From Billgrantia antri (GTDB taxonomy: Bacteria; Pseudomonadota; Gammaproteobacteria; Pseudomonadales; Halomonadaceae), in NCBI RefSeq assembly GCF_019430905.1, contig NZ_JAHYCA010000004.1, forward strand, positions 248,001-312,000: DNA of 64,000 nucleotides. Direction: 5' to 3'. A model generated the notes under the pieces. That model was given only the letters and a program-made list of their open reading frames with translations, did no database searches and was not told the origin of the DNA. How positions within the stretch are numbered: the first letter of the stretch is position 1; each line of letters opens with the position of its first letter. The position numbers and the translations under genes are program-made. Below, one piece after another: positions 1 through 22,743 of the stretch.

Positions 1-790
1 AACGCGGTACCGACACTATCAGCTCCGCCAGTTGAGCCGCCGACTGTACGCCGACCACCACGCGGTGAACACCAGTTTGCTGACAGGCAAAACCGAGACA
101 GGCTCTCACCGCAGATATGTTTTTCTCCGCAAGCCAGCTGTCATAGCATGCCAGCTGGTTTTCCCAGTCCCGAAAATAGGCGGGCCGATCTTCAGGCCGC
201 ATCAAGAGTAAGCCTTGCAAAAATACAGACCTAGCATGCACCTCGATACCACGCCGATTAAGTTCCCCCAGCCAACCGGAGGAAAGCAGGCGCCTGTCCA
301 TCAGGTTGAACGGAGCCTGCACCAGATCGAAGTGATAGTGGGATAATAGAGTGTCCAACTCCCCCGGCTGATAGATCGACACCCCGATCTTGTCGATTCG
401 GCCTTGAACCTTGAACGACTGAATCGCCTCATAGACCGCCTCGCCGCCTTCGTCGAACAGTTGCATGGGGCGATGCAGCAGCACTGCCGAAAGCGTATTG
501 ACTCTCAGCGCCTTGAGAGATGACTCGATAGACTGCTCGACCCAAGTAGAGATACAGCCGACATTTGCTGGGATTGGTGGCACCTTGGTGATCACCTCGA
601 AGTCGCCAACGCCAACCTTGCCGAGCACCTCTTCACTGCTGCCATAGGCGGCGGCGGTGTCTAAAGTGCGTATGTCATGCTTCAGAGCAAGCCGAAGGAT
701 TCGATGCACCTCTTCGGAAGCAACCTTGCCTCCGGTATTTGCTATCCCGTAGTCAAGGCCGAACTGGGCGGTTCCAAGGGCCAGCTTCAT
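1..790 (-). CDS. Aldo/keto reductase, C-terminus cut by window edge
   Basis: I translated this frame by hand: about 263 codons are open from the ATG at 790 down to base 1 with no stop, so the C-terminus lies outside the window. The protein begins MKLALGTAQFGLDYGIAN and shows the aldo/keto reductase pattern: Asp and Tyr in DTAAAYGSSEE, Lys in EVITKVP and His in VLLHRP, which match the usual D-Y-K-H active-site set. The ATG overlaps the pseC stop codon (ATGA, 787-790), so the two are translationally coupled. Aldo/keto reductases of this type recur in pseudaminic acid clusters. Its substrate is unknown; a role in sugar-nucleotide or nonulosonate chemistry is inferred from position only. Confidence 0.85.
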   Translation of the reverse strand, partial: MKLALGTAQFGLDYGIANTGGKVASEEVHRILRLALKHDIRTLDTAAAYGSSEEVLGKVGVGDFEVITKVPPIPANVGCISTWVEQSIESSLKALRVNTLSAVLLHRPMQLFDEGGEAVYEAIQSFKVQGRIDKIGVSIYQPGELDTLLSHYHFDLVQAPFNLMDRRLLSSGWLGELNRRGIEVHARSVFLQGLLLMRPEDRPAYFRDWENQLACYDSWLAEKNISAVRACLGFACQQTGVHRVVVGVQSAAQLAELIVSVPR

Positions 791-1944
791 GAAAGAGCTC
801 TTTCAAGTGCCGACACTACATCATCCTGCTGCATTTCTGTCATCGTCGGAAATAGGGGCAGGCTGACCGCATCGGCGTAGTAAGCTTCTGCGACAGGGAA
901 GTCACCTAGTTTGAAGCCAAGCTCCCGATAGTAGGGTTGGGTATGCACCGGGATGTAGTGCAGATTGACGCCGATACCCAGCTCTCGCAGGCGCTCGAAC
1001 ACCTGACGATGCGTCGGGGTGATAAAGTCGCGCTTGAGACGGATGACGTAGAGGTGACGGCCTGAGTAGCTATTTGGAAGCTGCCAAGGTGTGGTGACGG
1101 GCAGCCCGGCCAAGGCGGTATCATAACGAGCAGCCAGGACGTTGCGCTGAGCTACGTAGTCGTCCAGGCGATTTAGCTGAGAAAGCCCAAGTGCGGCCTG
1201 CAGCTCGGTCATGCGGTAGTTGTAGCCCAAGTCAATCTGTTGGTAGTACCAAGGACCATCGGCCTCGTGGGTCATCAGCGCCGGATCTCGCGTCACGCCG
1301 TGGCTGCGCAGCAGGTCCATGCGACGGGCCAGCGCATCGTTATTGGTTAGCGCCATGCCGCCTTCGGCGGTGGTGATGATCTTCACGGGATGGAAGCTAA
1401 ACACGGTGATATCGCTATAGCCGCCGTTACCGATGTAGTCGCCTTGATATTTTCCACCGATGGCGTGCGAAGCATCCTCAATAACACGAAAACCGTAGCG
1501 CTTACTCAGTTCGTGAATCGTCTGCATATCGCAGGGCTGACCGCAAAGGTGCACCGCCACTACGACCTTGGGCAGGCGCCCTGCTCGCTCGGCTTGCTCT
1601 AGTTTAGCTGCCAGAGCCTTGGAGCAGAGATTGTAGGTGCGTGGATCAATATCCACGAAATCGACCTTGGCACCACAGTAAAGACCACAGTTGGCGGAGG
1701 CAACAAAAGTAATAGGAGAGGTCCAGAGCCAGTCGCCCTTCCCTAGACCTAGTGCCAAGCAGGCAATGTGTAGCGCCGAGGTAGCGCTGTTTACCGCCAG
1801 CGCATGGTGAACGCCTACCTTATCGGCCACGGCGCGCTCGAAGCGTGGCACCACCGGGCCTTGGGTCAGAAAGTCCGACTGCAATACCTCAAGCACGGCA
1901 TCGATGTCGGCCTGCTGAATATCCTGACGTCCATAAGGGATCAT
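787..1944 (-). CDS. pseC: UDP-4-amino-4,6-dideoxy-N-acetyl-beta-L-altrosamine transaminase
   Basis: This is a DegT/DnrJ/EryC1-type PLP aminotransferase for the second step of CMP-pseudaminic acid synthesis; it acts on the 4-keto sugar made by PseB, with glutamate as usual amino donor. The start at 1944 (MIPYGRQDIQQADIDAV) gives 385 aa, the normal PseC length. A longer in-frame start at 2010 would run into pseB and is unlikely. The Lys in FSFHPVKIITTAEGG is the expected PLP Schiff-base residue. The ATG shares one base with the pseB stop (TGATG), and the next gene overlaps by 4 bp, so pseB, pseC and the reductase form a tightly coupled operon. Confidence 0.93.
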   Translation of the reverse strand: MIPYGRQDIQQADIDAVLEVLQSDFLTQGPVVPRFERAVADKVGVHHALAVNSATSALHIACLALGLGKGDWLWTSPITFVASANCGLYCGAKVDFVDIDPRTYNLCSKALAAKLEQAERAGRLPKVVVAVHLCGQPCDMQTIHELSKRYGFRVIEDASHAIGGKYQGDYIGNGGYSDITVFSFHPVKIITTAEGGMALTNNDALARRMDLLRSHGVTRDPALMTHEADGPWYYQQIDLGYNYRMTELQAALGLSQLNRLDDYVAQRNVLAARYDTALAGLPVTTPWQLPNSYSGRHLYVIRLKRDFITPTHRQVFERLRELGIGVNLHYIPVHTQPYYRELGFKLGDFPVAEAYYADAVSLPLFPTMTEMQQDDVVSALERALS

Positions 1945-2942
1945 CAGATGGCCCCGATCTTTTCCCAATTGGCATCGATCCATGCTCGAAGCTCGCTGTC
2001 GCTCATCCATTCGGCATTGTTATCGCTGGCATAGACGAAACCTTCCGGCACCCTTTTTCCTTCCTTGATGCGGTTAGCGTCCTTATCCCAGCTGTTGATC
2101 GCTGGTAGGATCTTGAAATGTTCGGGGTACTCGTAGGTGTAATAGGCATCTTCGGCGCCGATCATCTGCTCGTGCAGTTTCTCGCCAGGTCGAATACCGA
2201 TCACTTCCTGTTTAGCCTCCGGAGCAACGACCCGCGCCAGGTCGGTGACTTTCATGGAGGGAATCTTTTTTACGTAGATCTCGCCACCTTCCATATCCTC
2301 AAAGGCATGCCATACCAGCTCCACGCCTTGCTCAAGGCTGATCATAAAGCGAGTCATACGCTCATCGGTAATAGGCAACACGCCCTTATCACGGATCGAC
2401 ATGAAGAAAGGTATTACCGACCCCCGGGAGCCCATCACGTTGCCGTAGCGAACTACCGAAAAACGTGTTTCGTGGCCACCCGCATAGGAATTGCCGGCTA
2501 CGAACAACTTGTCTGAGGTCAGCTTGGTAGCGCCATAGAGATTAATTGGACTGCTTGCTTTGTCTGTGGACAGAGCCACTACTTTTTTGACGCCTTTGTC
2601 GATACAGGCATCAATCAAGTTCATCGCGCCGATAACGTTGGTCTTGACACACTCGAAGGGATTGTACTCGGCGGTAGGCACGATTTTGGTGGCTGCAGCA
2701 TGTACCACATAGTCGACCCCATCTAGTGCACGGTAAACCCGGTCCCGATCACGCACATCGCCGATAAAGAAGCGTACTCGAGAATCACCTTCAAATTTCT
2801 TGGCCATATCCCACTGCTTCATCTCATCCCTAGAAAAAATGATCACTCGCTTGGGATTATAGTGCCCAAGCAGCATTGGAATGAAGGTATGGCCGAAGGA
2901 GCCGGTACCACCTGTGACCAAGATAGATGAATTATTAAACAT
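1944..2942 (-). CDS. pseB: UDP-N-acetylglucosamine 4,6-dehydratase (inverting)
   Basis: This 332-aa short-chain dehydrogenase-type enzyme catalyses the first step of pseudaminic acid synthesis: UDP-GlcNAc is dehydrated and C5-inverted to UDP-2-acetamido-2,6-dideoxy-beta-L-arabino-hexos-4-ulose. The N-terminus holds the nucleotide-binding motif ILVTGGTGSFG, followed by IFSRDEMKQWDMAK, which is typical of PseB/FlaA1. The catalytic region reads STDKASSPINLYGATK with the Y-x3-K pair. An AAAGG ribosome-binding site lies about 10 bases before the ATG. It sits directly upstream of pseC and 24 bp below the ABC exporter gene. Confidence 0.94.
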   Translation of the reverse strand: MFNNSSILVTGGTGSFGHTFIPMLLGHYNPKRVIIFSRDEMKQWDMAKKFEGDSRVRFFIGDVRDRDRVYRALDGVDYVVHAAATKIVPTAEYNPFECVKTNVIGAMNLIDACIDKGVKKVVALSTDKASSPINLYGATKLTSDKLFVAGNSYAGGHETRFSVVRYGNVMGSRGSVIPFFMSIRDKGVLPITDERMTRFMISLEQGVELVWHAFEDMEGGEIYVKKIPSMKVTDLARVVAPEAKQEVIGIRPGEKLHEQMIGAEDAYYTYEYPEHFKILPAINSWDKDANRIKEGKRVPEGFVYASDNNAEWMSDSELRAWIDANWEKIGAI

Positions 2943-2966
2943 TCGCTATTTACCTTTCAAAAATCG

Positions 2967-4790
2967 TCAAGCATGTTCTGCCATGCGCTGGAATATGGTG
3001 TTACGTTCTGCCAGATCGCTATAGCAACCTTGATCAACAGACTGGCCGTTAGCAAGTAAAAAAATACTGTCACATTGCCTCACTGTCGCTAGGCGATGGG
3101 CAATCATGATTATGGTCTTCTTTCCCGAAAAATCGTGAATAGCATCCATGATGAGCTTCTCGGTGATACCATCAAGCGCACTGGTAGCCTCATCGAGCAC
3201 GAGAACGTCAGCATCGTCGTATAAGGCTCGTGCTATGCCGATTCTCTGGCGCTGACCACCCGAGAGCTGAACGCCTCGCTCACCGACATGCGTATCCAGT
3301 CCTTGAGGAAGTTCCTCGATTAGCTCATCGAGGTGCGCCATGCGGATGGCCTGATGTATTCTTGCTTCATCGATATTTTCAGGCGGAATGCCAAAAGCAA
3401 TATTCTCCCGAATGCTGGCATCCGCCAGGAAAATGCTTTGAGGTACGAAACCAATACTGTTCTGCCATTTTCGACGATTAGCATCGTTGATTGGTTGCCC
3501 ATCCACTAGCAGCTCCCCTTGCTGAGGCTGAATCAAACCCAGTAGCACATCGATCGCAGTCGACTTGCCCGAACCCGATGCTCCTACCAAGCCAATCACC
3601 TGTTTCGCTGGTATGGTCAAAGTCAGGTCCTTCAAGGCAGGCTCTTCCTTGCCTGGGTAAGTCAACGAAATATCGTGTAGCTGTATTTCTGTGTTGACAA
3701 TCAATTTTTCCGGTGCCGCTAACTCCGCGGCAGCCATTGTGGCTACTGCATCCTGATCGATAGCTTGATGGTAGCTATGCTGCATGGCTTCGCGAATCGA
3801 TTCGAAGGCGGCCATATTACCTTTTATCTTTGCCAGGCTCTGGTAGGCCTGCTGGAAGGCCGGTAGCATCTTGAAGCCTGCCAGAGCGTAAACGGAGAGT
3901 ACCGGCAGCATATGGCCCAAGCTGCCCTGGTGCACTCCCAGCAGGTAAAGCACCAGCAGCATGATGCTGCCAAAGGCGATCAATTGCATCGCGTAGCGAG
4001 GCACTTCACTCAACGCCTGGTTCACTCCTTGCGCCCTGGCCAATTTATCGCTCGATTGAATGAAACGCTGGGTGAACAAGGCTTGGCGGCCCAGCAGAAG
4101 AACGTCCTTGATGCCACCGAAGCCTTCATTCATCAGCTTGTAGCGTAGCGTATTCATATTGGAGATACGGCGGCCATTGTCAGCCAATCTTCTGCGAACC
4201 ACCTTGAACAGCAATACGTAGGCAAACAGGAACATTGCCAAGCCGAATAGCGTGACCATAGGGTCGTAAAACACCAGCCCCACCACCATGAAGCCCGCCA
4301 TGGCCAGCTTGGCATTAAGCTGCAGGACCGGGTTGAGGATACTGTTTGTGACTCGCTGTGTTTCCTGTGCCACCTGCTTGGTCAATTGGCTACTGCTGCC
4401 GCTAGCGTGGAATAACCAGGGCTGGTGCAGGTAGTGGGTATAGAGCCGCTGACTGATCTGTGCCCCCACGCTATTTGCAAACATGGCCATACGCCAAGTA
4501 GTCAGCATCGAGAATCCGGTGCCCACTATCATCACGAGCAGAACGGCAGAGCCGAGCCAGAACAGGAAGGTACGCGGCGAATCCGCCCCGATGGCTGCGT
4601 AGAGTTGCGCCAGCATGCCCTCACCTTCCAGGCGCGACATATCGCCAACCACCGACATGAAAGGGGCGATGGCAGCGACACTGGCAATCTCTGCGAAGGC
4701 CATGATCACGACCAGCAGCTGCAGTCGCAGAAAGCGCTTGCGTTGCCTGGGCGTCAGCAGAGAGTAGAGCTCTTTCAAGAGGTCAAACAT
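2967..4790 (-). CDS. ABC exporter, fused permease and ATPase (PglK/MsbA-like flippase candidate)
   Basis: This 607-aa half-transporter has an N-terminal membrane domain with about six hydrophobic segments (residues ~20-320) and a C-terminal ATPase. The ATPase shows Walker A GASGSGKST (~401-409), signature LSGGQRQR (~509) and Walker B DVLVLDEATSALD (~525), with a downstream switch His in MIAHRLATV. Half-transporters of this class act as homodimers in the inner membrane and flip lipid-linked oligosaccharides or lipids. The position between ugd and pseB suggests export or flipping of a glycan containing uronic and/or pseudaminic acid. The substrate is inference; MsbA-like lipid A export cannot be excluded by sequence alone. 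Confidence 0.88.
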   Translation of the reverse strand: MFDLLKELYSLLTPRQRKRFLRLQLLVVIMAFAEIASVAAIAPFMSVVGDMSRLEGEGMLAQLYAAIGADSPRTFLFWLGSAVLLVMIVGTGFSMLTTWRMAMFANSVGAQISQRLYTHYLHQPWLFHASGSSSQLTKQVAQETQRVTNSILNPVLQLNAKLAMAGFMVVGLVFYDPMVTLFGLAMFLFAYVLLFKVVRRRLADNGRRISNMNTLRYKLMNEGFGGIKDVLLLGRQALFTQRFIQSSDKLARAQGVNQALSEVPRYAMQLIAFGSIMLLVLYLLGVHQGSLGHMLPVLSVYALAGFKMLPAFQQAYQSLAKIKGNMAAFESIREAMQHSYHQAIDQDAVATMAAAELAAPEKLIVNTEIQLHDISLTYPGKEEPALKDLTLTIPAKQVIGLVGASGSGKSTAIDVLLGLIQPQQGELLVDGQPINDANRRKWQNSIGFVPQSIFLADASIRENIAFGIPPENIDEARIHQAIRMAHLDELIEELPQGLDTHVGERGVQLSGGQRQRIGIARALYDDADVLVLDEATSALDGITEKLIMDAIHDFSGKKTIIMIAHRLATVRQCDSIFLLANGQSVDQGCYSDLAERNTIFQRMAEHA

Positions 4791-12873: not shown

Positions 12874-13485
12874 TCACCAAGGCGAGGGCATTACGTCCTC
12901 ATCAACGTATTGCTGGGTACGATTGCGGTAGCGGTTCGGATCCCCTTCGGCCTCCTCGGCCCATGCAGACTCCACAATCGGCGCATGGAAATCCCGGCTG
13001 CGGTCGCGGCCACAGACAGTACAGCGAGCTCGCCACCAGAGGTAGACCTCACCCTCGCCTGAGAACCCGGCCATAAGATAATGGCGGTAACCGGGCGGCG
13101 GATATTCCCGGTACCACTGCTGCAGTTGGGTATCAGTATCTGGAAGTGCCAAATCGATCTCGTAATAGGTTTGGGTGCGGTAAGAGAACCAGCGCGCCTG
13201 CACTGAAGACGGGGCAGGCATGGGACGAGGCAAAACGGCAGTTGCGCCCCCTGTGGGAGGCCGCTTGTCGAACCCGCCGCCCAGATTCCCACCCGGCGAC
13301 CACCACGTATGATCGAAGGTCAATTCTTCTACCCACACCGGCCTACCCGTTGGGCCACCATTGAGCTGCACGGCAAAATCGTACCGCCTTAGCTCCGGTT
13401 GGGGCTCAGCCTCGCAAGCACTGGTCAGTAATAGCAGTGCCAACAGTAGCGCAGGCCGCAGGCGGCTCATCCATGAGCTAGGCAT
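12874..13485 (-). CDS. DUF2931 lipoprotein, second copy (putative immunity protein)
   Basis: The 203-aa product begins MPSSWMSRLRPALLLALLLL and has a lipobox LTSAC at residues ~20-24, so it should be lipid-anchored and face the periplasm. The body matches its neighbour at 13622-14227 closely (ARWFSYRTQT, YYEIDLALPDT, QQWYREYPPP, HYLMAGFSGEGEVY, CTVCGRD, HAPIVESAWAEE). DUF2931 genes often sit beside DUF2235 toxins and are presumed immunity proteins. The start at 13485 was preferred to 13518 because it places the signal peptide at the N-terminus and matches the paralogue. The ATG overlaps a remnant toxin stop codon (13478-13480), as in the first copy. Confidence 0.83.
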   Translation of the reverse strand: MPSSWMSRLRPALLLALLLLTSACEAEPQPELRRYDFAVQLNGGPTGRPVWVEELTFDHTWWSPGGNLGGGFDKRPPTGGATAVLPRPMPAPSSVQARWFSYRTQTYYEIDLALPDTDTQLQQWYREYPPPGYRHYLMAGFSGEGEVYLWWRARCTVCGRDRSRDFHAPIVESAWAEEAEGDPNRYRNRTQQYVDEDVMPSPW

Positions 13486-13575
13486 CCTGAGGCTCCTGCG
13501 GGGCCGCCACCGGCACATGGCGATTGGGAAATACCCGTCGCTTGCCGCCAGGCTCCGGGGCGTGGGTCAGGCTGT
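13478..13575 (-). pseudogene. Remnant of the DUF2235 toxin 3' end (second copy)
   Basis: The minus strand encodes THAPEPGGKRRVFPNRH, then VPVAAPQEPQDA and a TAG stop, nearly the same as the toxin's own C-terminus (AHAPEPSGVRRVFPNRH and onward). The last 50 bases (13478-13527) are identical by eye to 14220-14269. Upstream the match fades into the stop of the first DUF2931 gene. This is a duplicated toxin tail without the rest of the gene, left by tandem duplication. Confidence 0.8.
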
Positions 13576-13621
13576 CCGAATAGCAGCACGAAAGCACAGG
13601 CTGGCTTCGACTCACTCGTCA

Positions 13622-14227
13622 TCATTCCCAAGGCGAAGGAATGATCCCCTCTTCAATCCGTCGTTGAGTCTGACTGCGGAAAGTAGACGGGTCGCCCTCC
13701 ACTTCCTCGGCCCACGCCGACTCCACTATCGGTGCATGGAAATCTTGACTGCGATCACGACCGCAGACAGTACAGCGAGCTCGCCACCAGACGTAGACCT
13801 CGCCTTCGCCGGAGAAGCCGGCCATAAGATAATGGCGGTAATCCGGCGGCGGATATTCCCGGTACCACTGCTGAAGCAGAGCATTCGTTCCCGGCAGCGC
13901 CAGATCGATCTCATAGAAGGTCTGTGTGCGGTAGGAGAACCAGCGTGCTTGCATCGACTGTGGAACTGGCAGATAACTGCCAAGAATAGCAGTCCTGTTC
14001 CCTCTTGGAGGCTCGCGATCAAACCCTTCACTCAGCCCACCAACCGGAGCTCCCCAGGTACGGTCGAAAGTTAAATCCTCTACCCATACCGGCCAACCAC
14101 GAGGCCCACCCACGGTCTGAAGCACGAATTCGTAGCGTCGCGCCTCCTGTTCCGCCTCGCAGGCAGTGGTCAATAGCAGCAGTGCCAGTAGCAGACCCTG
14201 GCGGAAGCGGACTAACCATCTAGGCAT
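13622..14227 (-). CDS. DUF2931 lipoprotein, first copy (putative immunity protein)
   Basis: The 201-aa product starts MPRWLVRFRQGLLLALLLLT and carries a lipobox LTTAC at ~20-24. Its ATG overlaps the toxin stop by 8 bp (ATGCCTAG, 14220-14227), strong evidence of translational coupling to the toxin. Conserved features shared with the copy at 12874-13485 include ARWFSYRTQT, LLQQWYREYPPPDYR, HYLMAGFSGEGEVYVWW and the Cys pair CTVC. The most divergent part lies between residues 30 and 85, which could reflect selection for toxin variants. Immunity function is inferred from family context, not seen directly. Confidence 0.85.
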   Translation of the reverse strand: MPRWLVRFRQGLLLALLLLTTACEAEQEARRYEFVLQTVGGPRGWPVWVEDLTFDRTWGAPVGGLSEGFDREPPRGNRTAILGSYLPVPQSMQARWFSYRTQTFYEIDLALPGTNALLQQWYREYPPPDYRHYLMAGFSGEGEVYVWWRARCTVCGRDRSQDFHAPIVESAWAEEVEGDPSTFRSQTQRRIEEGIIPSPWE

Positions 14228-16004
14228 CCTGAGGCTCCTGCGGGGCCGCCACCGGCACATGGCGATTGGGGAATACCCGGCGCACGCCGCTAGGCTCTGG
14301 GGCGTGGGCGAAGCGATCTCGCAAGGTGAACGGGTACTGGCGGTGAGAGGTATGGATGTAACCGGCGAAATGCTCGTGCGACATCTCCAGCATCCACTGC
14401 CGTCCGTGTCGCCTGCCGCCTTGCCACCAGCTATCGATCAAGGCTTGCAGCTCGGCGGGGATGGTATGGTCTGGGTCATCCCGGAGTTCATCTAGGGGCA
14501 CCCAGGCTCGCTTCGCCTCTTCATACATCTGATGCAGGGCGTAGATCGCCAGTTCCTTGCGCGTGGCGCGCCGCTCGACTTCGAGCACGTCCATGCCCTC
14601 CACGCGAATGTCGAGCCCTCGAGCCTGCGCTTCCGCCTGAGCCCGGCGAATCGTCTCCCCATTGGCGCCTAGCCCGCCGCGATGGCGCACGATCAGTTCT
14701 TCAAGGTTGGCGAAGTCCGCTTCGTGCTGGGGGTTCTCGTAGCCTCCGCCCACGTCAGAATGCACCCCCGGCAGGGCAATCTCGGCGAAGTTGCCGGGAT
14801 GGTTGCCTTGCGCATCGGCAATGCTGCTAAGCGGAAAGTTGCGGCGGATCTCGTGATAGGCGGTAAGCTGCACCACGCGCGCCGCACTGCCCGAGGCGAT
14901 GTAAAGATCGAAATCGAGGTTCTCGGCGTTGCCGGGCCAGTAGAAGCTGCCCACGGTATCGAACAGACCGACGAAGCGCACCTGCGGGAAGGGAATTGGT
15001 GAAGGCGGAAAGGCTTCGATGAGGCGTAGCGGCGGCCGGTACTCGCCAATTCGAAAGTCCGGCACCGTCACGGCTGCCGCCTCACCGAGCCCGAAGTCCG
15101 GTACCATCAGGGTTTCCGGCCAGCGGTGGATGAGGTTGACGAAGTGCCGCGCCAAAGCCGCGCCGCGACTGAAGCCGAACACATCGAAGGTCACCAGCGA
15201 ATCGCGGGGGTTGGCCTCAAGGATCTCGCGGACCTCATTCAACGCCTGCTCGATACGCGCATGACCGCCCTCCGGGCCGATGCCGGTACCCATGCCGATG
15301 GCGTCTTCGGGGGCTACGAAGCCATCCTCGCCCTCACGGCCGGTGATAGTTCCCACACCCTGAATATATACGGGGTAGTGTTCTTCATCATCTCGATACA
15401 GGCCATGCAATTTGGCCACGTTAGTGATATCGCGGTCGGGTAGCTGGCGGTCGTTGTACATGTTGTTGCCGGTGCCGTCGAAGAATACGCCTATCTGCAG
15501 GGTGCGCGGTCGTTCGGGAGGAGGCTCCGGCACTGGCGGCGGGGTGGAGGTCCGCGGCGCTGGCGTGGGCACGGGACGAGTGACGCCCCAATCACCGTGG
15601 CGCTGCAGCATGGCCACGGCCTGCGGCCCCAGCCCCCGTGCATTGAGACGCGGCAGCAGGAAATTGACCAGGCTGCGGCCGCTGAACGCTCCCCGGGCAT
15701 TCGAGCGCCACTGCTCCCCGTTCCATTCGACCAGAGGAAGAAAGGGACGGTCGAAGCCGTCATTCAAGACCAGTAGCAAATTACCCTGCTCGACCGCCTT
15801 GACGATCGTTCGGATCGCCTCATCCTTGTCCGGCGCCCAGCCAATGCCCCCTGCCTTGGCATACAGCCGGGAGAGCCCTTCCCGGCCAGTCTCTCTCGAC
15901 AACTTGTCTTTTACCTTGCTCGAGGCAAAGGTGGGCGACTCGATGAAGGGAAGATCAATATCCCTGACGTCATGGCGACGTATGAGCTTAAAGAACACTG
16001 CCAC
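14220..16004 (-). CDS. DUF2235 (Tle1-like) putative phospholipase toxin
   Basis: The 594-aa protein has three parts: an unfamiliar N-terminal region (residues 1-~145), a Pro-rich linker (~150-165), and a DUF2235 alpha/beta-hydrolase domain. The hydrolase part has IGVFFDGTGNNMYND (~171), the nucleophile Ser279 in VFGFSRGAALARHFVN, an Asp in PGVHSDVGGGY (~414) and a C-terminal His in IHTSHRQYPF. This matches type VI secretion lipase effectors of the Tle1 group. The start is GTG, at 16004 or two codons later, behind GGGAGAG. No VgrG, PAAR or T6SS structural gene is in the window, so delivery is inferred. Two DUF2931 lipoproteins follow. Confidence 0.87.
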   Translation of the reverse strand: MAVFFKLIRRHDVRDIDLPFIESPTFASSKVKDKLSRETGREGLSRLYAKAGGIGWAPDKDEAIRTIVKAVEQGNLLLVLNDGFDRPFLPLVEWNGEQWRSNARGAFSGRSLVNFLLPRLNARGLGPQAVAMLQRHGDWGVTRPVPTPAPRTSTPPPVPEPPPERPRTLQIGVFFDGTGNNMYNDRQLPDRDITNVAKLHGLYRDDEEHYPVYIQGVGTITGREGEDGFVAPEDAIGMGTGIGPEGGHARIEQALNEVREILEANPRDSLVTFDVFGFSRGAALARHFVNLIHRWPETLMVPDFGLGEAAAVTVPDFRIGEYRPPLRLIEAFPPSPIPFPQVRFVGLFDTVGSFYWPGNAENLDFDLYIASGSAARVVQLTAYHEIRRNFPLSSIADAQGNHPGNFAEIALPGVHSDVGGGYENPQHEADFANLEELIVRHRGGLGANGETIRRAQAEAQARGLDIRVEGMDVLEVERRATRKELAIYALHQMYEEAKRAWVPLDELRDDPDHTIPAELQALIDSWWQGGRRHGRQWMLEMSHEHFAGYIHTSHRQYPFTLRDRFAHAPEPSGVRRVFPNRHVPVAAPQEPQDA

Positions 16005-16959: not shown

Positions 16960-18171
16960 ATGAACGAGAACCGAAACGTCAAGATACGCGTGCGTCACTT
17001 GAGCAAGGTCTTCGGCAATCAGCCGAAGAAGGCTCTCGAACTGCGCGACAAGGGGCTCAAGCGCCCCGAGATACTCGAGAAGACGGGACAGACGCTGGGG
17101 CTCTCCGATATCAGCTTCGATGTCTATGAGGGCGAGCTTCTGGTCATCATGGGATTGTCCGGCTCGGGCAAGTCCACGCTCATCCGCTGCTTGAACCGAT
17201 TGATCGAGCCCACCGAGGGCGAGATCGTCATCGACGGCGAGAACATTCCCGAACTTGGCGACAAGGCACTGCTGGAGTGCCGCCGCCGGCACTTCTCGAT
17301 GGTGTTCCAGAATTTCGCGCTCTTCCCCCACCGCACGGTACAGCAGAACGCCGAGTTCGGCCTCGAGATACGCGGCGTGGACAAGGCCGAGCGCAACGAG
17401 ATTGCCCGCAATGCTCTCAAGCAGGTGGGGCTCGACGGTTGGGAGGACGCCTACCCCAACCAGCTTTCCGGCGGTATGCAGCAGCGCGTCGGCCTGGCAC
17501 GGGCGCTGGCGAACGACTCCACCGTATTGCTGATGGATGAGGCCTTCTCGGCACTCGATCCGCTGATTCGCGGCGACATGCAGCAGGAGCTGCTGGAACT
17601 GCAGCATCGCATGCAGAAGACCACGGTGTTCATCACCCACGATCTCGACGAGGCGTTGACCATCGGCGACCGCATCGTGCTGCTCAAGGATGGCGAGATC
17701 GTGCAGATCGGCACGCCGGAGGAGATTCTCACCCGCCCCGCCGACGACTACGTGCGCCGCTTCATCGAGGGAGTCGACCGCTCGCGCATCCTGACCGCCG
17801 AGAGTGCCATGCGCAAGGTGCGTGCCACCGTGCGCGACACCGACGGGCCGCGTACCGCCCTGCGCAAGATGCATGAGCATGCCATCGACTCCATCTACGT
17901 GACCCGCCGCGACCGCAGCCTGGTCGGGCTGCTCGAGGCCGAGGCGGCGGAGAACCTGGTCAAGGAGGGCAAGGAAACCATTGCCGGCGCCCTGACCCAG
18001 GACTACCGCACCGTGGGCCCGGACGAGCCGATGCACAACCTCTTCGCCATGTTCAGCGAGAAGAGCTTCCCCATCGCGGTGGTGGACGAGCAACAGCGCC
18101 TGTTGGGCGTCGTGGTCAAGGGGGCGGTGCTCGATGAGCTAGCCCAGGCGGCAGAGGAAGGAGGCAACTGA
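16960..18171 (+). CDS. proV: Glycine betaine/proline betaine ABC transporter, ATPase subunit
   Basis: The 403-aa subunit hydrolyses ATP to drive uptake of betaine-type osmoprotectants. It shows Walker A GLSGSGKST (~65), signature LSGGMQQRVGLARAL, Walker B LLMDEAFSALD and the switch His in FITHDLDEAL. The C-terminal ~120 residues (RKVRATVRDTDGPRTALRKM onward) form a pair of CBS domains, which in OpuA/ProU transporters sense ionic strength. The N-terminal NQPKKALELRDKGLKRPEIL is typical of ProV. It is first in a proV-proW-proX operon, and its stop overlaps the proW start by one base (TGATG). Confidence 0.95.
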   Translation: MNENRNVKIRVRHLSKVFGNQPKKALELRDKGLKRPEILEKTGQTLGLSDISFDVYEGELLVIMGLSGSGKSTLIRCLNRLIEPTEGEIVIDGENIPELGDKALLECRRRHFSMVFQNFALFPHRTVQQNAEFGLEIRGVDKAERNEIARNALKQVGLDGWEDAYPNQLSGGMQQRVGLARALANDSTVLLMDEAFSALDPLIRGDMQQELLELQHRMQKTTVFITHDLDEALTIGDRIVLLKDGEIVQIGTPEEILTRPADDYVRRFIEGVDRSRILTAESAMRKVRATVRDTDGPRTALRKMHEHAIDSIYVTRRDRSLVGLLEAEAAENLVKEGKETIAGALTQDYRTVGPDEPMHNLFAMFSEKSFPIAVVDEQQRLLGVVVKGAVLDELAQAAEEGGN

Positions 18172-19010
18172 TGGCGATCGAGATTCCCCGTATTCCACTG
18201 GGCAAGTGGATCGAAGACGGCCTGAACTGGCTCACCAGCGAATACTCGATGGTGACTCGCGGCATCTCACGGGTGACCCAGACCGGCATCGAGTGGCTCA
18301 ACGAGAGCCTGATGTGGCTGCCCGTATGGGCGCTGCTGGCGATCATCGCCGGGCTGTGCTGGAAACTGGCCAACCTGCGCCTGGCCATCGGCGCCGTAGC
18401 CGGCCTGGCGCTGATCTGGAACCTCGGCCTGTGGGAGCCGATGATCGAGACCCTCACCCTGGTGGTCATCGCCACCCTGGTGGCAGTGGTCATCGCCTTG
18501 CCGGTAGGTATCGCCGCGGCGCTCTCCGAGCGGCTCTACCGCGCCATAATGCCGGTGCTGGACTTCATGCAGACCATGCCGGCCTTCGTCTACCTGATTC
18601 CGGCGATCCCCTTCTTCGGCATCGGTTCGGTGTCGGCGATCTTCGCCACGGTGATCTTCTCGATGCCTCCGGCCATACGCTTCACCACCCTGGGCATACG
18701 CCAGGTACCGGTAGAGCTGATCGAGGCGGCGGACGCCTATGGCGCCACCCGTGGCCAGAAGTTGTTCAAGGTGCAGCTGCCGCTGTCGCTGCCCACGGTA
18801 ATGGCAGGCATCAACCAGACCATCATGCTGGCGCTCTCGATGGTGGTGATTGCCGCCATGATCGGCGCCGACGGCCTGGGCAGCGAAGTATGGCGCGCCA
18901 TCCAGCGCCTGCGCCCCGGCGACGGCTTCGAGGCGGGTATCGCCGTGGTCATACTGGCCATGCTGCTCGACAGGCTGACACAGTCGCTGCGGAAATCTCG
19001 CAAGAGCTGA
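18171..19010 (+). CDS. proW: Glycine betaine/proline betaine ABC transporter, permease subunit
   Basis: This 279-aa inner-membrane permease has about six to seven hydrophobic helices. The cytoplasmic coupling (EAA-type) loop reads EAADAYGATRGQKLFKVQLP, and the conserved QTMPAFVYLIPAIPFFGIG segment is characteristic of ProW. It works with two ProV ATPases and periplasmic ProX. Length is shorter than E. coli ProW because the long N-terminal extension is reduced. Its start codon overlaps the proV stop, and proX follows after 84 bp with its own strong ribosome-binding site, which may allow more binding protein to be made. Confidence 0.95.
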   Translation: MAIEIPRIPLGKWIEDGLNWLTSEYSMVTRGISRVTQTGIEWLNESLMWLPVWALLAIIAGLCWKLANLRLAIGAVAGLALIWNLGLWEPMIETLTLVVIATLVAVVIALPVGIAAALSERLYRAIMPVLDFMQTMPAFVYLIPAIPFFGIGSVSAIFATVIFSMPPAIRFTTLGIRQVPVELIEAADAYGATRGQKLFKVQLPLSLPTVMAGINQTIMLALSMVVIAAMIGADGLGSEVWRAIQRLRPGDGFEAGIAVVILAMLLDRLTQSLRKSRKS

Positions 19011-19094: not shown

Positions 19095-19958
19095 ATGGTT
19101 ACCAAACCACGTACTAGTGGCCTTACCGCACTGGCACTGGCCGTCGGAGCCGGCCTTGCCGCCGGTGCCGCCCAGGCCCAGGACAAGGGCACCGTGCACC
19201 TGGCCTACGTGGAGTGGTCATCCGAGGTGGCCTCCACCAATGTGATGCGCGCCGTCCTCGAGCAGGCGGGCTACGAGGTCGACATGACCGCCCTCTCCGC
19301 CGCTGCCATGTGGCAGTCAGTGGCGACCGGCGATGCCGATGCCATCGTGGCGGCCTGGCTGCCGACCACGCACGAAGAGTACATGAACCGTGTCGGTGAA
19401 GATGTCGAGGATCTCGGCCCCAACCTGGACGGCACCAAGCTGGGCCTGGTGGTACCGGAATACACCGAGGTCGACAGCATCGCCGAGCTCAACGAGCATA
19501 CCGATACCTTCAACGGCGAGATCATCGGTATCGACCCCGGCGCCGGCCTGATGGGCCTGACCGAGGATGTCATCGACACCTACGACCTGGAGCTGGATCT
19601 GCGTAGCGGCAGCGGCGCCACCATGACCGCCGCCCTGGCCAACGCCATTGCCAACGAGGAAGACGTCGTCGTCACCGGCTGGACACCGCACTGGAAGTTC
19701 GCCCGATGGGATCTCGAGTACCTCGAGGATCCGGAGAACGTCTACGGCGGTGCCGAGCAGATCCACACCGTAGTGCGCCAGGGCCTGGAAGACGACATGC
19801 CCGAGGCCTACGCCATCCTGGACGCTTTCGAGTGGACGCCCGAACAGATGGGTGAAGTCATGCTCATGAACCAGGAGGAAGACGCCGACCCGTACGAGAA
19901 CGCCAAGCAATGGGTCGAAGAGAACCAGGACGTAGTGGAAGAGTGGCTTAACGGCTGA
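19095..19958 (+). CDS. proX: Glycine betaine/proline betaine ABC transporter, periplasmic binding protein
   Basis: The 287-aa protein begins with a signal peptide (MVTKPRTSGLTALALAVGAG...AAQAQDKG, cleavage after AQA probable) and an OpuAC-type ligand-binding domain, for example VHLAYVEWSSEVASTNVMRA and VVTGWTPHWKFARWDLEYL. It is strongly acidic towards the C-terminus (NQEEDADPYENAKQWVEENQ), as expected of periplasmic proteins from halophiles. The ATG at 19095 follows CGGAGGAAA. An earlier in-frame ATG at 19026 lacks a ribosome-binding site and would bury the signal peptide. The last 210 bp are duplicated downstream at 20702-20911. A strong terminator follows the stop. Confidence 0.95.
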   Translation: MVTKPRTSGLTALALAVGAGLAAGAAQAQDKGTVHLAYVEWSSEVASTNVMRAVLEQAGYEVDMTALSAAAMWQSVATGDADAIVAAWLPTTHEEYMNRVGEDVEDLGPNLDGTKLGLVVPEYTEVDSIAELNEHTDTFNGEIIGIDPGAGLMGLTEDVIDTYDLELDLRSGSGATMTAALANAIANEEDVVVTGWTPHWKFARWDLEYLEDPENVYGGAEQIHTVVRQGLEDDMPEAYAILDAFEWTPEQMGEVMLMNQEEDADPYENAKQWVEENQDVVEEWLNG

Positions 19959-19982
19959 TACGTCACCCGTACGTCCCATTAA

Positions 19983-20018
19983 AAAACGCCTTGGCACGAC
20001 ATGTGCCAAGGCGTTTTG
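19983..20018 (+). terminator. Rho-independent terminator after proX
   Basis: A perfect 11-bp stem (19987-19997 with 20003-20013, cgccttggcac / gtgccaaggcg) with a 5-base loop is flanked by A6 on the left and TTTTGCTTT on the right. It can stop transcription from both directions, ending proVWX and the antitoxin gene. Confidence 0.92.
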
Positions 20019-20037
20019 CTTTATTGGAGCCGCTCGG

Positions 20038-20319
20038 TCAGGATGCTTCGGCGTGGAGCTTGAATCCCAGCGCGTTCATGACTTTCATGATCGTGGCAAA
20101 GCTGGGGTTACCATCGGCGGAGAGTGCTTTGTAGAGCCCCTCACGAGTCAGCCCGGTGTCACGCGCCAGTTGTGCCATGCCGCGAGCGCGAGCAATGTCA
20201 CCCAGGGCCGCGGCCACCAGTGCAGGATCGTTCTCCTCAAAGCAGGCCTCGAGATAGAGAGCCATTTCCTCTTCGGACTCCAGATGGTCGACAACATCCC
20301 ACTTTTTCAGAGCGTTCAT
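20038..20319 (-). CDS. Antitoxin, HigA/addiction-module antidote type HTH protein
   Basis: The 93-aa protein has a lambda-repressor-like helix-turn-helix (LARDTGLTREGLYKALSADG) followed by NPSFATIMKVMNALGFKLHA, typical of the probable addiction module antidote family. It is the second gene of the pair: its ATG overlaps the toxin stop codon (ATGA, 20316-20319), the toxin-first order seen in higBA-like systems. It should neutralise the toxin and repress the operon by binding upstream. The proX terminator lies just beyond its 3' end. Confidence 0.88.
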   Translation of the reverse strand: MNALKKWDVVDHLESEEEMALYLEACFEENDPALVAAALGDIARARGMAQLARDTGLTREGLYKALSADGNPSFATIMKVMNALGFKLHAEAS

Positions 20320-20618
20320 GGAACCTCCTTCAACTCGCGTGCCAGCTGCTTCGCGATCTCGATATCTTTGGCCTGGCTGCCTTTGTCGCCGCCAGCCAGG
20401 AGAATCACCAGCTCGAATCCTCGCTGCACGAAATACACCCGATAGCCGGGACCATAGTGAATGCGCAGCTCCGATACGCCCTCGCCCACCGGCTCACAAT
20501 CACCAAAATTGCCTAGCTCAATGCGGCGTATCCTGGCCAGTATCCTAGCCTTCGCCCGGTGGTCTCGCAGTTTAGCGAACCAGGTGGCGTAGGTATCCGT
20601 TTGGCTGATGCTCTTCAT
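20316..20618 (-). CDS. RelE/ParE-superfamily toxin (HigB/Gp49-like)
   Basis: Starting at the ATG at 20618 the product is 100 aa (MKSISQTDTYATWFAKLRDH). A TTG five codons earlier is possible but has no better ribosome-binding site. The pattern KARILARIRRIELGNFGD, then VGEGVSELRIHYGPGYRVYF and VILLAGGDKGSQAKDIEIAK matches the putative addiction module killer proteins (PF05973-like). Relatives cleave mRNA on the ribosome. The Arg in GPGYRVYF and the GGDKGSQ segment are the usual conserved residues. The pair lies between proX and a partial proX copy, which suggests it arrived by recombination. Confidence 0.88.
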   Translation of the reverse strand: MKSISQTDTYATWFAKLRDHRAKARILARIRRIELGNFGDCEPVGEGVSELRIHYGPGYRVYFVQRGFELVILLAGGDKGSQAKDIEIAKQLARELKEVP

Positions 20619-20628
20619 GATCGAAAGT

Positions 20629-20667
20629 GTCAACTATAGTTCACGACAAAGCAACCGCTAGTTGACA
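20629..20667. promoter_or_regulatory. Candidate operator of the toxin-antitoxin operon
   Basis: Inverted repeat gtcaacta (20629-20636) and tagttgac (20660-20667) flank a 23-bp spacer, and the left arm merges into a perfect 10-bp palindrome aactatagtt (20632-20641). This lies directly upstream of the toxin start, where antitoxins of this class usually bind. Confidence 0.45.
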
Positions 20668-20701
20668 AGGCCATTGAAAATATCTCCGCAGGGAGCTCAG
20701 T

Positions 20702-20911
20702 GGTACCGAGCAGATCCACACCGTGGTGCGCCAGGGCCTGGAAGACGACATGCCCGATGCCTACGCCATCCTGGACGCTTTCGAATGGACGCCCGAGCAG
20801 ATGGGCGAAGTCATGCTCATGAACCAGGAGGAAGACGCCGACCCGTACGAGAGCGCCAAGCAGTGGGTCGAAAACAATCAGGACGTGGTGGAAGAGTGGC
20901 TTAACGACTGA
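20702..20911 (+). pseudogene. Duplicated 3' fragment of proX
   Basis: This stretch reproduces the last 210 bp of proX (19749-19958) with about 13 differences by eye, most of them silent, and ends with the same stop position. It encodes the last ~70 residues (EQIHTVVRQGLEDDMPDAYA onward) and has no N-terminus, signal peptide or domain 1. It cannot form a binding protein. The reading frame is intact, so the copy is either recent or has been kept similar by gene conversion with proX. Confidence 0.9.
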
Positions 20912-20968
20912 ACTACACCAACCAGCCCTGTCTGAGCGAAGCACTATCTCGCTAGAGACGTAAAAAGA

Positions 20969-21005
20969 AGCCCGGGCCCTACTGGAGACAGGCCCGGGCT
21001 TTTTA
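20969..21005 (+). terminator. Rho-independent terminator after the proX fragment
   Basis: A perfect 10-bp stem agcccgggcc (20969-20978) and ggcccgggct (20991-21000) with a 12-base loop is followed by TTTT. It differs in sequence from the terminator after intact proX. Confidence 0.88.
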
Positions 21006-21027
21006 GCGCTTTATGGAAATAGAGGGT

Positions 21028-22206
21028 CTATAGCTCACGCCACCCAGTCGGCTGGCTTCCGCCGCCTATCAATTGATCGAGAAGGGAGACAGCAGCGGAA
21101 CTGTATCGGAGGTCAGAGTTGCCCTTGGCATCAAGATCCGTACCGCCCTTGTTGCCGTTGCCGTTGCCCTTTCCCTTACCTTTCCCCTTACCGTTACCAC
21201 TTTCGCTTTCGCTTTCGCTATCAGTTCCGCCAGAAGCCTCTTCGGACTTGAGCATGACAATTCCACCATAAAGGTTGAATGTACCCGTTGCCATCTCGAT
21301 CCTGCCCCCTTCCTCTACGAGGATGAGCCCTTCGTGATGTGCCGTGCCATTTGCCTTTTCAAGCGTGCCCCCATCGCGGACGATTATGATTCCAGCGGTA
21401 GCCTGGTTACCGTTCATTTTTACGTTGCCAGTGATCTCAATAACTGAGGGCGAGTTGCGAGCCCCATCGAAGCTGATGCTACCACTTGAAAAGCTTGCGT
21501 CGGGGGTCGGCAGGCCAGCAATGAACGCCTCCCAAAACTCTCTTTTATCAGCATAGTCATCATGATCGGGCGAGAAATGTGCAAAATCGGGAACGTCCAG
21601 GTCAGTATCTCTATCTGGCTCTGGTGTGGTTCGGCAATGAGAGCCCGTGCAATTGAAGCTATCCGGAAGTGGATGATCTTCTCCATGAAGATGGCCATCT
21701 GCGCTATGAGAGCACTCAAGCCCAATGCAGGTGAAAACGGCATCCAAGTCTGGAGCACCACCTCCACCATAGCTGACCAAGATGTATCGTTCCGCATCGT
21801 CGGGCCTACTGCCTACTCGACCATGTCCTATAAGATAGCGGCTGGCACTGGGAGGGCTGAAATTGGGAATTAACCCTTCATCGATAGCTGCCTGCAGTCC
21901 TGCGGCATTCAGCATGGTATAGCGATGGCGAAACCTGCCATCATCGCCGCTTATCCAAGAGGACCAGATATTATCGCCATTCGTGATCGGCCCAGGCCCC
22001 AGAAAAGCTTTATCTGGATCTGCCACACCCGCAGCAGCCCCCATCTCAGCGGCCATCTGGGCTTGCGAGGCAGTTCGGTAGTTGCCCGCCAACCTCTCGT
22101 TCACCAGACTGCCACTCACACCGGAGAGACCAAGCATCAGCGCCATGCTCAGTATGGACAGCACCACGACGAGGGCTGCGCCTTGTTGTTGCTTCGGACC
22201 CACCAT
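21028..22206 (-). CDS. PilX-like pilus protein with a beta-rich C-terminal domain
   Basis: The 392-aa protein begins MVGPKQQQGAALVVVLSILS, followed by MALMLGLSGVSGSLVNERLAGNYRTASQAQMAAE, which is the PilX N-terminal pattern of type IV pilus-associated proteins (class III-like prepilin segment). It is about twice the usual PilX length. Residues ~240-330 contain short strand-turn repeats (SVIEITGNVKMNGN, AGIIIVRDGG, EGLILVEEGGRIEM) suggesting a beta-helical or stacked-strand fold, and then a Ser/Glu and Gly/Lys/Asn repeat. Four Cys residues (FTCIGLEC, FNCTGSHC) could pair. It lies alone, without pilV, pilW or pilY1 in the window. Confidence 0.78.
   Translation of the reverse strand: MVGPKQQQGAALVVVLSILSMALMLGLSGVSGSLVNERLAGNYRTASQAQMAAEMGAAAGVADPDKAFLGPGPITNGDNIWSSWISGDDGRFRHRYTMLNAAGLQAAIDEGLIPNFSPPSASRYLIGHGRVGSRPDDAERYILVSYGGGGAPDLDAVFTCIGLECSHSADGHLHGEDHPLPDSFNCTGSHCRTTPEPDRDTDLDVPDFAHFSPDHDDYADKREFWEAFIAGLPTPDASFSSGSISFDGARNSPSVIEITGNVKMNGNQATAGIIIVRDGGTLEKANGTAHHEGLILVEEGGRIEMATGTFNLYGGIVMLKSEEASGGTDSESESESGNGKGKGKGKGNGNGNKGGTDLDAKGNSDLRYSSAAVSLLDQLIGGGSQPTGWREL
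21150..21230 (-). repeat. In-frame hexanucleotide repeats within the PilX-like gene
   Basis: Degenerate 6-bp units encode (SE)n followed by GNGKGKGKGKGNGNGNKGG. Because the unit is two codons, slippage would change length without breaking the frame. This would act as a flexible linker whose length can vary between strains. Confidence 0.75.
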
Positions 22207-22347: not shown

Positions 22348-22743
22348 TTAGCAGTTGGCAAGAGTTACGCCAGTAAAGCCATTAGCACAAGACCATGCAC
22401 CGCCTGTGGTTCGGGTCAAAGTAACAGAACTACCATTCCTTGTTGATACGATTGTCCCAGCGCCTGTACCGTCAACAGATATCGTAACTGTCGCAGGTGT
22501 AGTAACGGTCGAAGACGGATCATTGCCATCGAAAAGCTCAGCTTCCACAGGAGTCTTGAAGGAGGAAGCCTCGCTATAGGCTGCACTCGCGTTAGATCTT
22601 GCAATGTAATTCTGATACTGCGGAATCGCTATCGCCGCCAGAATGCCGATGATCGCCACGACGATCAGCAGCTCGATCAAGGTGAAACCGCCCTGGCCCT
22701 GCTTGGCGGCTGCTCGTTTCTTCATCAATTCTTTCATGCTCAT
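22348..22743 (-). CDS. pilA: Type IV major pilin
   Basis: The 131-aa prepilin has a short basic leader ([19 protein letters not shown]) and the processing site [20 protein letters not shown] with Glu at +5 of the mature N-terminus. PilD should cleave and N-methylate there. The C-terminal pair Cys...Cys ([15 protein letters not shown]) forms the usual D-loop. The leader is longer than the classical six residues. It is divergent from pilB and has its own terminator, the common arrangement in pseudomonads. Confidence 0.95.

Follow-up and report, generated by a model that had tools for sequence, protein, structure and literature searches.

In Billgrantia antri, a complete toxin-antitoxin (TA) module lies between an intact proX gene and a second copy of the last 210 bp of that gene, and this layout is best explained, at a probability that we place near 0.55, by displacement of the proX 3' end through homology-anchored illegitimate recombination. 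Under this reading, a fragment carrying a proX tail and the TA module behind it would have entered an ancestor and completed the resident gene with the incoming tail, leaving the old tail downstream of the module. The TA proteins themselves are ordinary, and the architecture follows a logic that is already known, applied here to a core gene that carries a TA as passenger. The locus was analysed in a window, by which is meant the whole stretch of 64,000 nucleotides, from a genome of 4.39 Mb (Table 1).

Table 1. Features at and around the proX locus, in window coordinates.
Feature	Position	Strand	Basis
proV-like ATP-binding subunit, glycine betaine-type ABC transporter	16960..18171	+	Pfam ABC_tran, CBS
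proW-like permease subunit	18171..19010	+	Pfam BPD_transp_1
proX-like substrate-binding protein, intact, 287 aa	19095..19958	+	PF04069 OpuAC 2.1e-72
Repeat copy 1, the intact proX 3' end, read as the incoming tail	19749..19958	+	Repeat; flank after it matches those of G082 (TA-bearing) and G095 (TA remnant)
Hairpin and T-run, TA-side terminator, between proX stop and antitoxin stop	19981..20018		Sequence reading; similar hairpin next to the TA or TA remnant in L131, L132, L134
Antitoxin, HI1420-type, 93 aa	20038..20319	-	TIGR02684 134.2 bits (curated cut-off 53.7), PF21716
Toxin, HI1419-type, RelE/ParE family, 105-aa ORF	20316..20633	-	TIGR02683 136.5 bits (curated cut-off 62.85), PF05973
Palindrome AACTATAGTT upstream of toxin, putative operator	20632..20641		Recurrence upstream of toxins
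Linker, 44 bp, from conserved TA DNA to copy 2, holding the presumed illegitimate joint	20658..20701		Alignments end before it
Repeat copy 2, presumably what is left of the resident proX 3' end after displacement	20702..20911	+	Repeat; flank resembles G088 proX flank
Hairpin and T-run 3' of copy 2, taken as the native proX terminator	20968..21004		Flank 20912-21028 aligns to G088 flank
Minor pilin gene, PilX-like, at the border of the variable region	21028..22206	-	PilX_N 24.7 bits, just below cut-off 25.5
Type IV pilin gene	22348..22743	-	N_methyl, Pilin

A repeat search of the window recovered the two proX ends as a 210-nt direct repeat of 94% identity, and the figure of about 13 differences given in the first-pass annotation was borne out when exactly 13 were counted base by base; a chance origin is ruled out (E 5.6e-80). 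The repeat starts in phase with proX codon 219, and copy 2 comprises codons 219-287, that is, 69 codons and a stop, in the proX frame and without the proX start. Both copies terminate on the stop codon and their flanks are unlike each other beyond it, a limit that is expected when alleles with unrelated flanks have met. As the annotation had held, the reading frame of proX was left intact by the insertion at its end, which would be because the incoming tail completes the gene, and the downstream tail is apparently of other origin than that of the intact gene. A full second proX as the source of this tail was looked for and is absent: the homologue search of the genome found a single other ProX homologue, only 33% identical, and copy 2 is therefore not the tail of another proX held elsewhere. 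The further claim that each copy has its own terminator stood in part, in that a hairpin with a T-run, as read from the sequence, lies 3' of each copy, but the one after copy 1 belongs to the TA side and is common to the relatives G082 and G095.

The module between the copies had been called HigBA-like. It is indeed complete and lies on the minus strand between the repeats, with toxin and antitoxin ORFs overlapping by 4 bp, and it has the HigBA-like traits of a toxin gene preceding the antitoxin gene and an antitoxin HTH_3 match (21.8 bits, slightly below the cut-off of 23). However, the family is of the HI1419/HI1420 type (TIGR02683/TIGR02684), both proteins scoring far above the curated cut-offs, with the toxin gene first and no protein difference noticed; the HigB domain PF05015 was not reported for the toxin, whose sole Pfam match at a threshold of E 0.001 is PF05973 Gp49, so that the earlier name is only loosely right. 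The toxin probably starts at the ATG at 20618. Between species, dN/dS against the G082 and G088 copies is 0.02 and 0.04 for the antitoxin and 0.06 and 0.11 for the toxin, and from this range of 0.02-0.11 the module is likely to be functional. Within one mismatch, AACTATAGTT occurs in 19 of 247 toxin upstream regions as against 1 of 230 background windows, a recurrence consistent with autoregulation in a subset of loci. Neither protein matched a solved structure at E 0.01, PADLOC gave no match at E 0.01, and no phage record matched the region. Plasmid records that matched numbered 71; the best 20 of these were mostly TA homologues, one of them, from Halomonas sp. PA16-9, matched the proX ends, and none of the 20 reached 80% query coverage.

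The relatives of the locus were sought in a genus set of 90 genomes (one genome per species), in which gene names were assigned by resemblance. At E 0.001 the TA DNA matched 13 of the 90, the genome under study among them. In G082, an intact TA of about 85% identity follows proX in the same place and orientation, and about 3.5 kb further on a degraded second TA and then a degraded proX tail adjoin a pilin-like gene; this tail is closest to G082's own proX, which, together with the degraded TA, points to repeated events or to gene conversion. In G095, proX is followed by the TA-side hairpin, a deleted TA remnant and then a PilX-like gene, and in G088, proX has a different terminator and is followed by about 8.5 kb of other genes, a TA remnant and then a PilX-like gene, with a complete TA on another contig. 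The proX-to-pilin stretch is variable in the clade, about 3.5 kb and about 8.5 kb of other genes standing there in two species (L131 and L133), and G093 (L123) carries two proX-like genes in tandem.

The origin of each tail was read from its flank. The downstream flank of copy 1 aligned to the proX flanks of G082 and G095 with scores of 83 and 54.5, and the TA-side DNA alignments to G082 and L134 end at 20654 and 20657. The flank of copy 2 (20912-21028) aligned to the proX flank of G088 with a score of 23, where the maximum of 300 shuffles was 15.5; G088 was the best of 37 relative flanks, the next best scoring 14, in what is a short alignment to one relative. Because its flank resembles that of G088, and the copy-1 flank those of G082 and G095, copy 2 with its terminator is most simply read as the native proX end, and the tail of copy 1 with the TA as the incoming material. 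Since G095, which has the closest proX, stems from a TA-bearing state, these comparisons would fit more than one order of events. Relatives with both proX ends but no module, which had been raised in the first-pass annotation, were not seen in the fetched loci among the matches listed from the 90 genus genomes.

In the proposed displacement, the donor would be a relative in which the TA module already stood behind proX. The proX part of the incoming fragment would pair with the resident proX and serve as the homologous anchor, and the far end, past the TA promoter, would be joined, at a site of little or no homology, some 210 bp short of the resident gene's stop codon. This would yield a resident 5' part, an incoming 3' part, the TA-side terminator, the TA, and the last 210 bp of the resident gene with its original terminator, the old tail persisting as a remnant without a start. 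A complete gene, cargo and a second 3' end in the same direction, the trait of such a displacement, are what is seen. Linear incoming DNA would suffice, with no circle, recombinase or duplication required, and this one-sided model would account for the stop-codon limit, the variable 5' limit and the unrelated flanks. Campbell-like integration, which the annotation had put forward, is retained as to the insertion at the proX end; its circle is possible but not needed, since a linear fragment with one homologous and one illegitimate end gives the same product. The TA, if active, would keep itself in place by addiction. The repeat, the TA family, the constraint acting on the TA and the resemblance of each flank to particular relatives are observed; we infer in this scheme the direction of transfer, the illegitimate joint, the activity of the TA and the addiction.

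The divergence between the two tails bears on whether they met or arose in place. The 13 differences correspond to a dS of 0.205 and a dN of 0.037, and their ratio of 0.18 falls in the range of 0.12-0.20 found for proX between species. Copy 1 and copy 2 are 93.8% identical, the copies are 92.9 and 90.5% identical to G095, and the two tails thus resemble each other a little more than they do any of the relatives compared, a result also expected from duplication in place or from gene conversion. An in-place event, in which the proX tail, perhaps with the TA, was tandemly duplicated, a TA copy was inserted or lost later and gene conversion kept the tails alike, is unlikely, even though this mutual closeness agrees with it, proX beside a TA or its remnant is common to the window, G082 and G095, and the degraded tail of G082 resembles its own proX and, by eye, seems to bear the start of the TA-side flank. 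Such an event sits poorly with a copy-2 flank that resembles the proX flank of G088 and not the TA-side flank, and the tail differences look allele-like, though not decisively. Compared with a model in which one copy is free to change, the shortage of amino-acid changes has P 0.05 in the window alone, and P 0.002-0.003 when tails are pooled, or 0.08-0.11 with transition bias, the tails outside the window being measured on segments recognised by eye only. Three changes are private to copy 2 (positions 4, 57 and 172) and each of them alters an amino acid, so that some of the divergence appears to reflect subsequent decay; dating the tails by their divergence, as had been suggested, is ambiguous because copy 2 mixes these changes with allele-like synonymous differences. 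No donor or recipient blocks are visible among the 13 differing sites. As judged from these substitutions, the comparison leans toward alleles of different lineages.

Duplicated gene ends were also sought around TA loci in other bacteria. The final rule took 600-bp flanks and called for a repeat of at least 30 bp and at least 75% identity, of which one copy had to lie at the 3' end of either a tRNA or a facing ORF no shorter than 100 aa. Set 1 comprised 182 loci of the HI1419/HI1420 family, 176 of them usable (80 from at least 542 matches, 100 from among the matches listed in another search, L134 and the window), and set 2 held 67 loci, 66 usable, drawn from part of the further matches; part of set 1 had already served to shape the rule, so that set 2 is the fairer test. 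Under this rule 10 of 176 set-1 loci were positive, the window included, whereas 459 shifted intervals taken from these loci gave 1. Three were dropped by eye (L216, L269 and, at 75.6%, L263) and the tenth is the window, which leaves 6 of 175 non-index loci. In set 2, a single locus of 66 (L374, 42-bp repeat) was positive, against none of 75 control intervals, and pooling gives 7 positives in 241 TA loci and 1 in 534 control intervals (Fisher p 0.0016, only approximate because several control intervals come from each locus and are not independent). For the RelE family, of which the fetched loci were part of the matches listed and 44 of 50 had a located toxin, a duplicated neighbour 3' end was found at 0 of 44 loci and in 0 of 26 control intervals. 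A first scan, for any flanking repeat, had picked out 20 of the 176 TA loci, and 8 of the 459 control intervals. Gene-end duplication around HI1419/HI1420 TA modules is real but infrequent, with thin replication.

The neighbours at the accepted set-1 loci, named from a reading of translations, are a tRNA-His end (L034), an 878-aa ORF resembling nitrate reductase (L074), a permease-like gene (L099), a penicillin-binding-protein-like gene (L223), a lipase-like gene (L258) and a 129-aa ORF (L267), and the set-2 locus, the weakest accepted case, has a glutathione-transferase-like gene with 88% identity over its repeat. At L099, L074, L223, L258, L267, L374 and L259, the remnant keeps the reading frame as far as a stop that coincides with the homologous position or lies no more than 4 codons from it; L223 and L258 have indels further upstream. 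Empty sites were sought for L223 in 27 genomes and for L267 in 25; besides the queried ones, 1 and 6 genomes matched, respectively, and by the listings the best matches lay in the TA itself or were short. When flanks were extended to 2.6 kb, an automated gene-end match was found at 15 of 176 loci, among which L189, L198, L216, L269 and L284 were not accepted. With the edge rule removed, further repeats overlap ORFs far from stops (for example L284, L392, L396 and L401), and L085 (tRNA-Pro), which had met an earlier rule and failed the final one, was left uncounted.

In L259, the lone control match, two copies of an sdhA-like tail enclose a HigB-like (PF05015) and HTH pair together with a DUF1889 gene, just upstream of an HI1419/HI1420 pair. 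In this locus (1-3812, toxin on +), the HigBA pair, the DUF1889 gene, the repeated sdhA tail and the HI1419/HI1420 pair stand between sdhA-like and sdhB-like ORFs, which gives the impression that a single gene end has gathered two TA modules. That all the flanking repeats might be attC sites was considered and rejected, since by eye only L248 is attC-like, L216 and L237 are transposon-associated, and L036, L203 and L269 are dispersed repeats; an integron cassette was likewise rejected for the window TA, whose flanking repeats are proX coding sequence and not attC. At L248 itself, the attC-like repeats (729-814 and 1504-1589, toxin on +) flank a TA of the same family, perhaps an integron cassette. 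At L085, L087 and L071, a same-family TA is flanked, at larger spacing, by a tRNA gene on one side and an incomplete duplicate of that gene's 3' end on the other, as in integrated islands.

Gene and tRNA 3' ends are classical targets of integrases, and the proX locus could be the remnant of an integrase-borne element, in which a tyrosine recombinase used the proX 3' end, the two tails are attL and attR, and the rest of the element was lost or the unit was moved in trans. The tRNA end at L034 and, with their larger spacing, those of the three loci just named accord with such an origin; for the window it is nonetheless quite improbable, given that the 743 bp between the copies hold no listed ORF of at least 70 aa that is recombinase-like by eye, that the proX remnant begins at different points in the window and in G082, that repeat lengths range from 40 to 212 bp among accepted loci, and that gaps are below 200 bp on both sides in 6 of the 7 accepted set-1 cases, window included, when 2.6-kb flanks are read.

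Displacement of a gene's 3' end has precedents in other settings. For T6SS arrays in Vibrio, homology-facilitated illegitimate recombination has been proposed by authors who call the process quite rare in passages of their paper (PMC5361080). Those passages describe T6SS immunity arrays and Rhs loci of Vibrio cholerae in which, as at proX, a new 3' end and new downstream cargo are followed by older 3' material and older cargo. There, the effector is altered by the segment exchanged, and its immunity gene makes up the cargo (PMC5361080), whereas the window has a transporter subunit gene with an almost unaltered tail and, as cargo, a TA unrelated to it. The window also holds a T6SS Tle1-like effector gene (PF09994, 14220-16004), the last 89 bp of which (14220-14308) recur with 93% identity at 13478-13566; a DUF2931 gene separates the two copies, and a second DUF2931-like gene (12874-13518) follows the repeat. 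The region 12874-16004 is possibly an immunity array or a tandem duplication, and plain tandem duplication fits equally well because the ORF of the second gene overlaps the repeated tail.

Restriction-modification systems that insert with long target duplication share with the window, in the parts of the reports that bear on it (PMC3874152, PMC3031569), an addiction-type gene pair, long direct repeats and no recombinase. In the window, by contrast, the cargo is a type II TA, the repeats end at the stop codon and the flanks match different relatives. That the TA was itself inserted in this manner, the insertion duplicating the gene end, is very unlikely: repeats in the order of 100 bp around addiction-type cargo would be as described for restriction-modification systems in portions of PMC3874152, but a pure duplication has no reason to end near a stop codon, and the accepted repeats end within 25 bp of the gene end (which was also a search rule), while the L074 tails differ in several residues like alleles. 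In mobile endonuclease ORFs of fungal mitochondria, sections of PMC3630166 describe a 5' body with an acquired C-terminus, a mobile ORF and the native C-terminus left downstream, an arrangement like that at proX, and report that hybrid transcripts were detected. The endonuclease is held in those sections to drive mobility, whereas no such gene lies between the proX copies. Among the papers listed by literature searches, as judged from titles, abstract openings and some passages, with few subscription papers covered, gene-end duplication around TA modules was not found reported.

To our knowledge, the spread of chromosomal TA modules outside known mobile elements is poorly explained. A tentative extension of the displacement reading, more doubtful than probable, is that modules of the HI1419/HI1420 type, as well as some of the HigBA type, spread without a recombinase as 'tail-carrying' cassettes, in which the TA and the adjoining gene 3' end, acting as homology arm, restore the host gene and leave its old end behind. 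If this were true, many gene ends could be landing sites and gene-end remnants would mark past arrivals. Where such remnants do mark TA entries, the remnant would be the recipient's allele and the end of the intact gene the donor's, and the route could be read from sequence. Transformation with a one-sided homology arm would then become a direct test of that route, and 3'-end displacement, proposed for T6SS and Rhs loci, would extend to ordinary core genes with a TA passenger.
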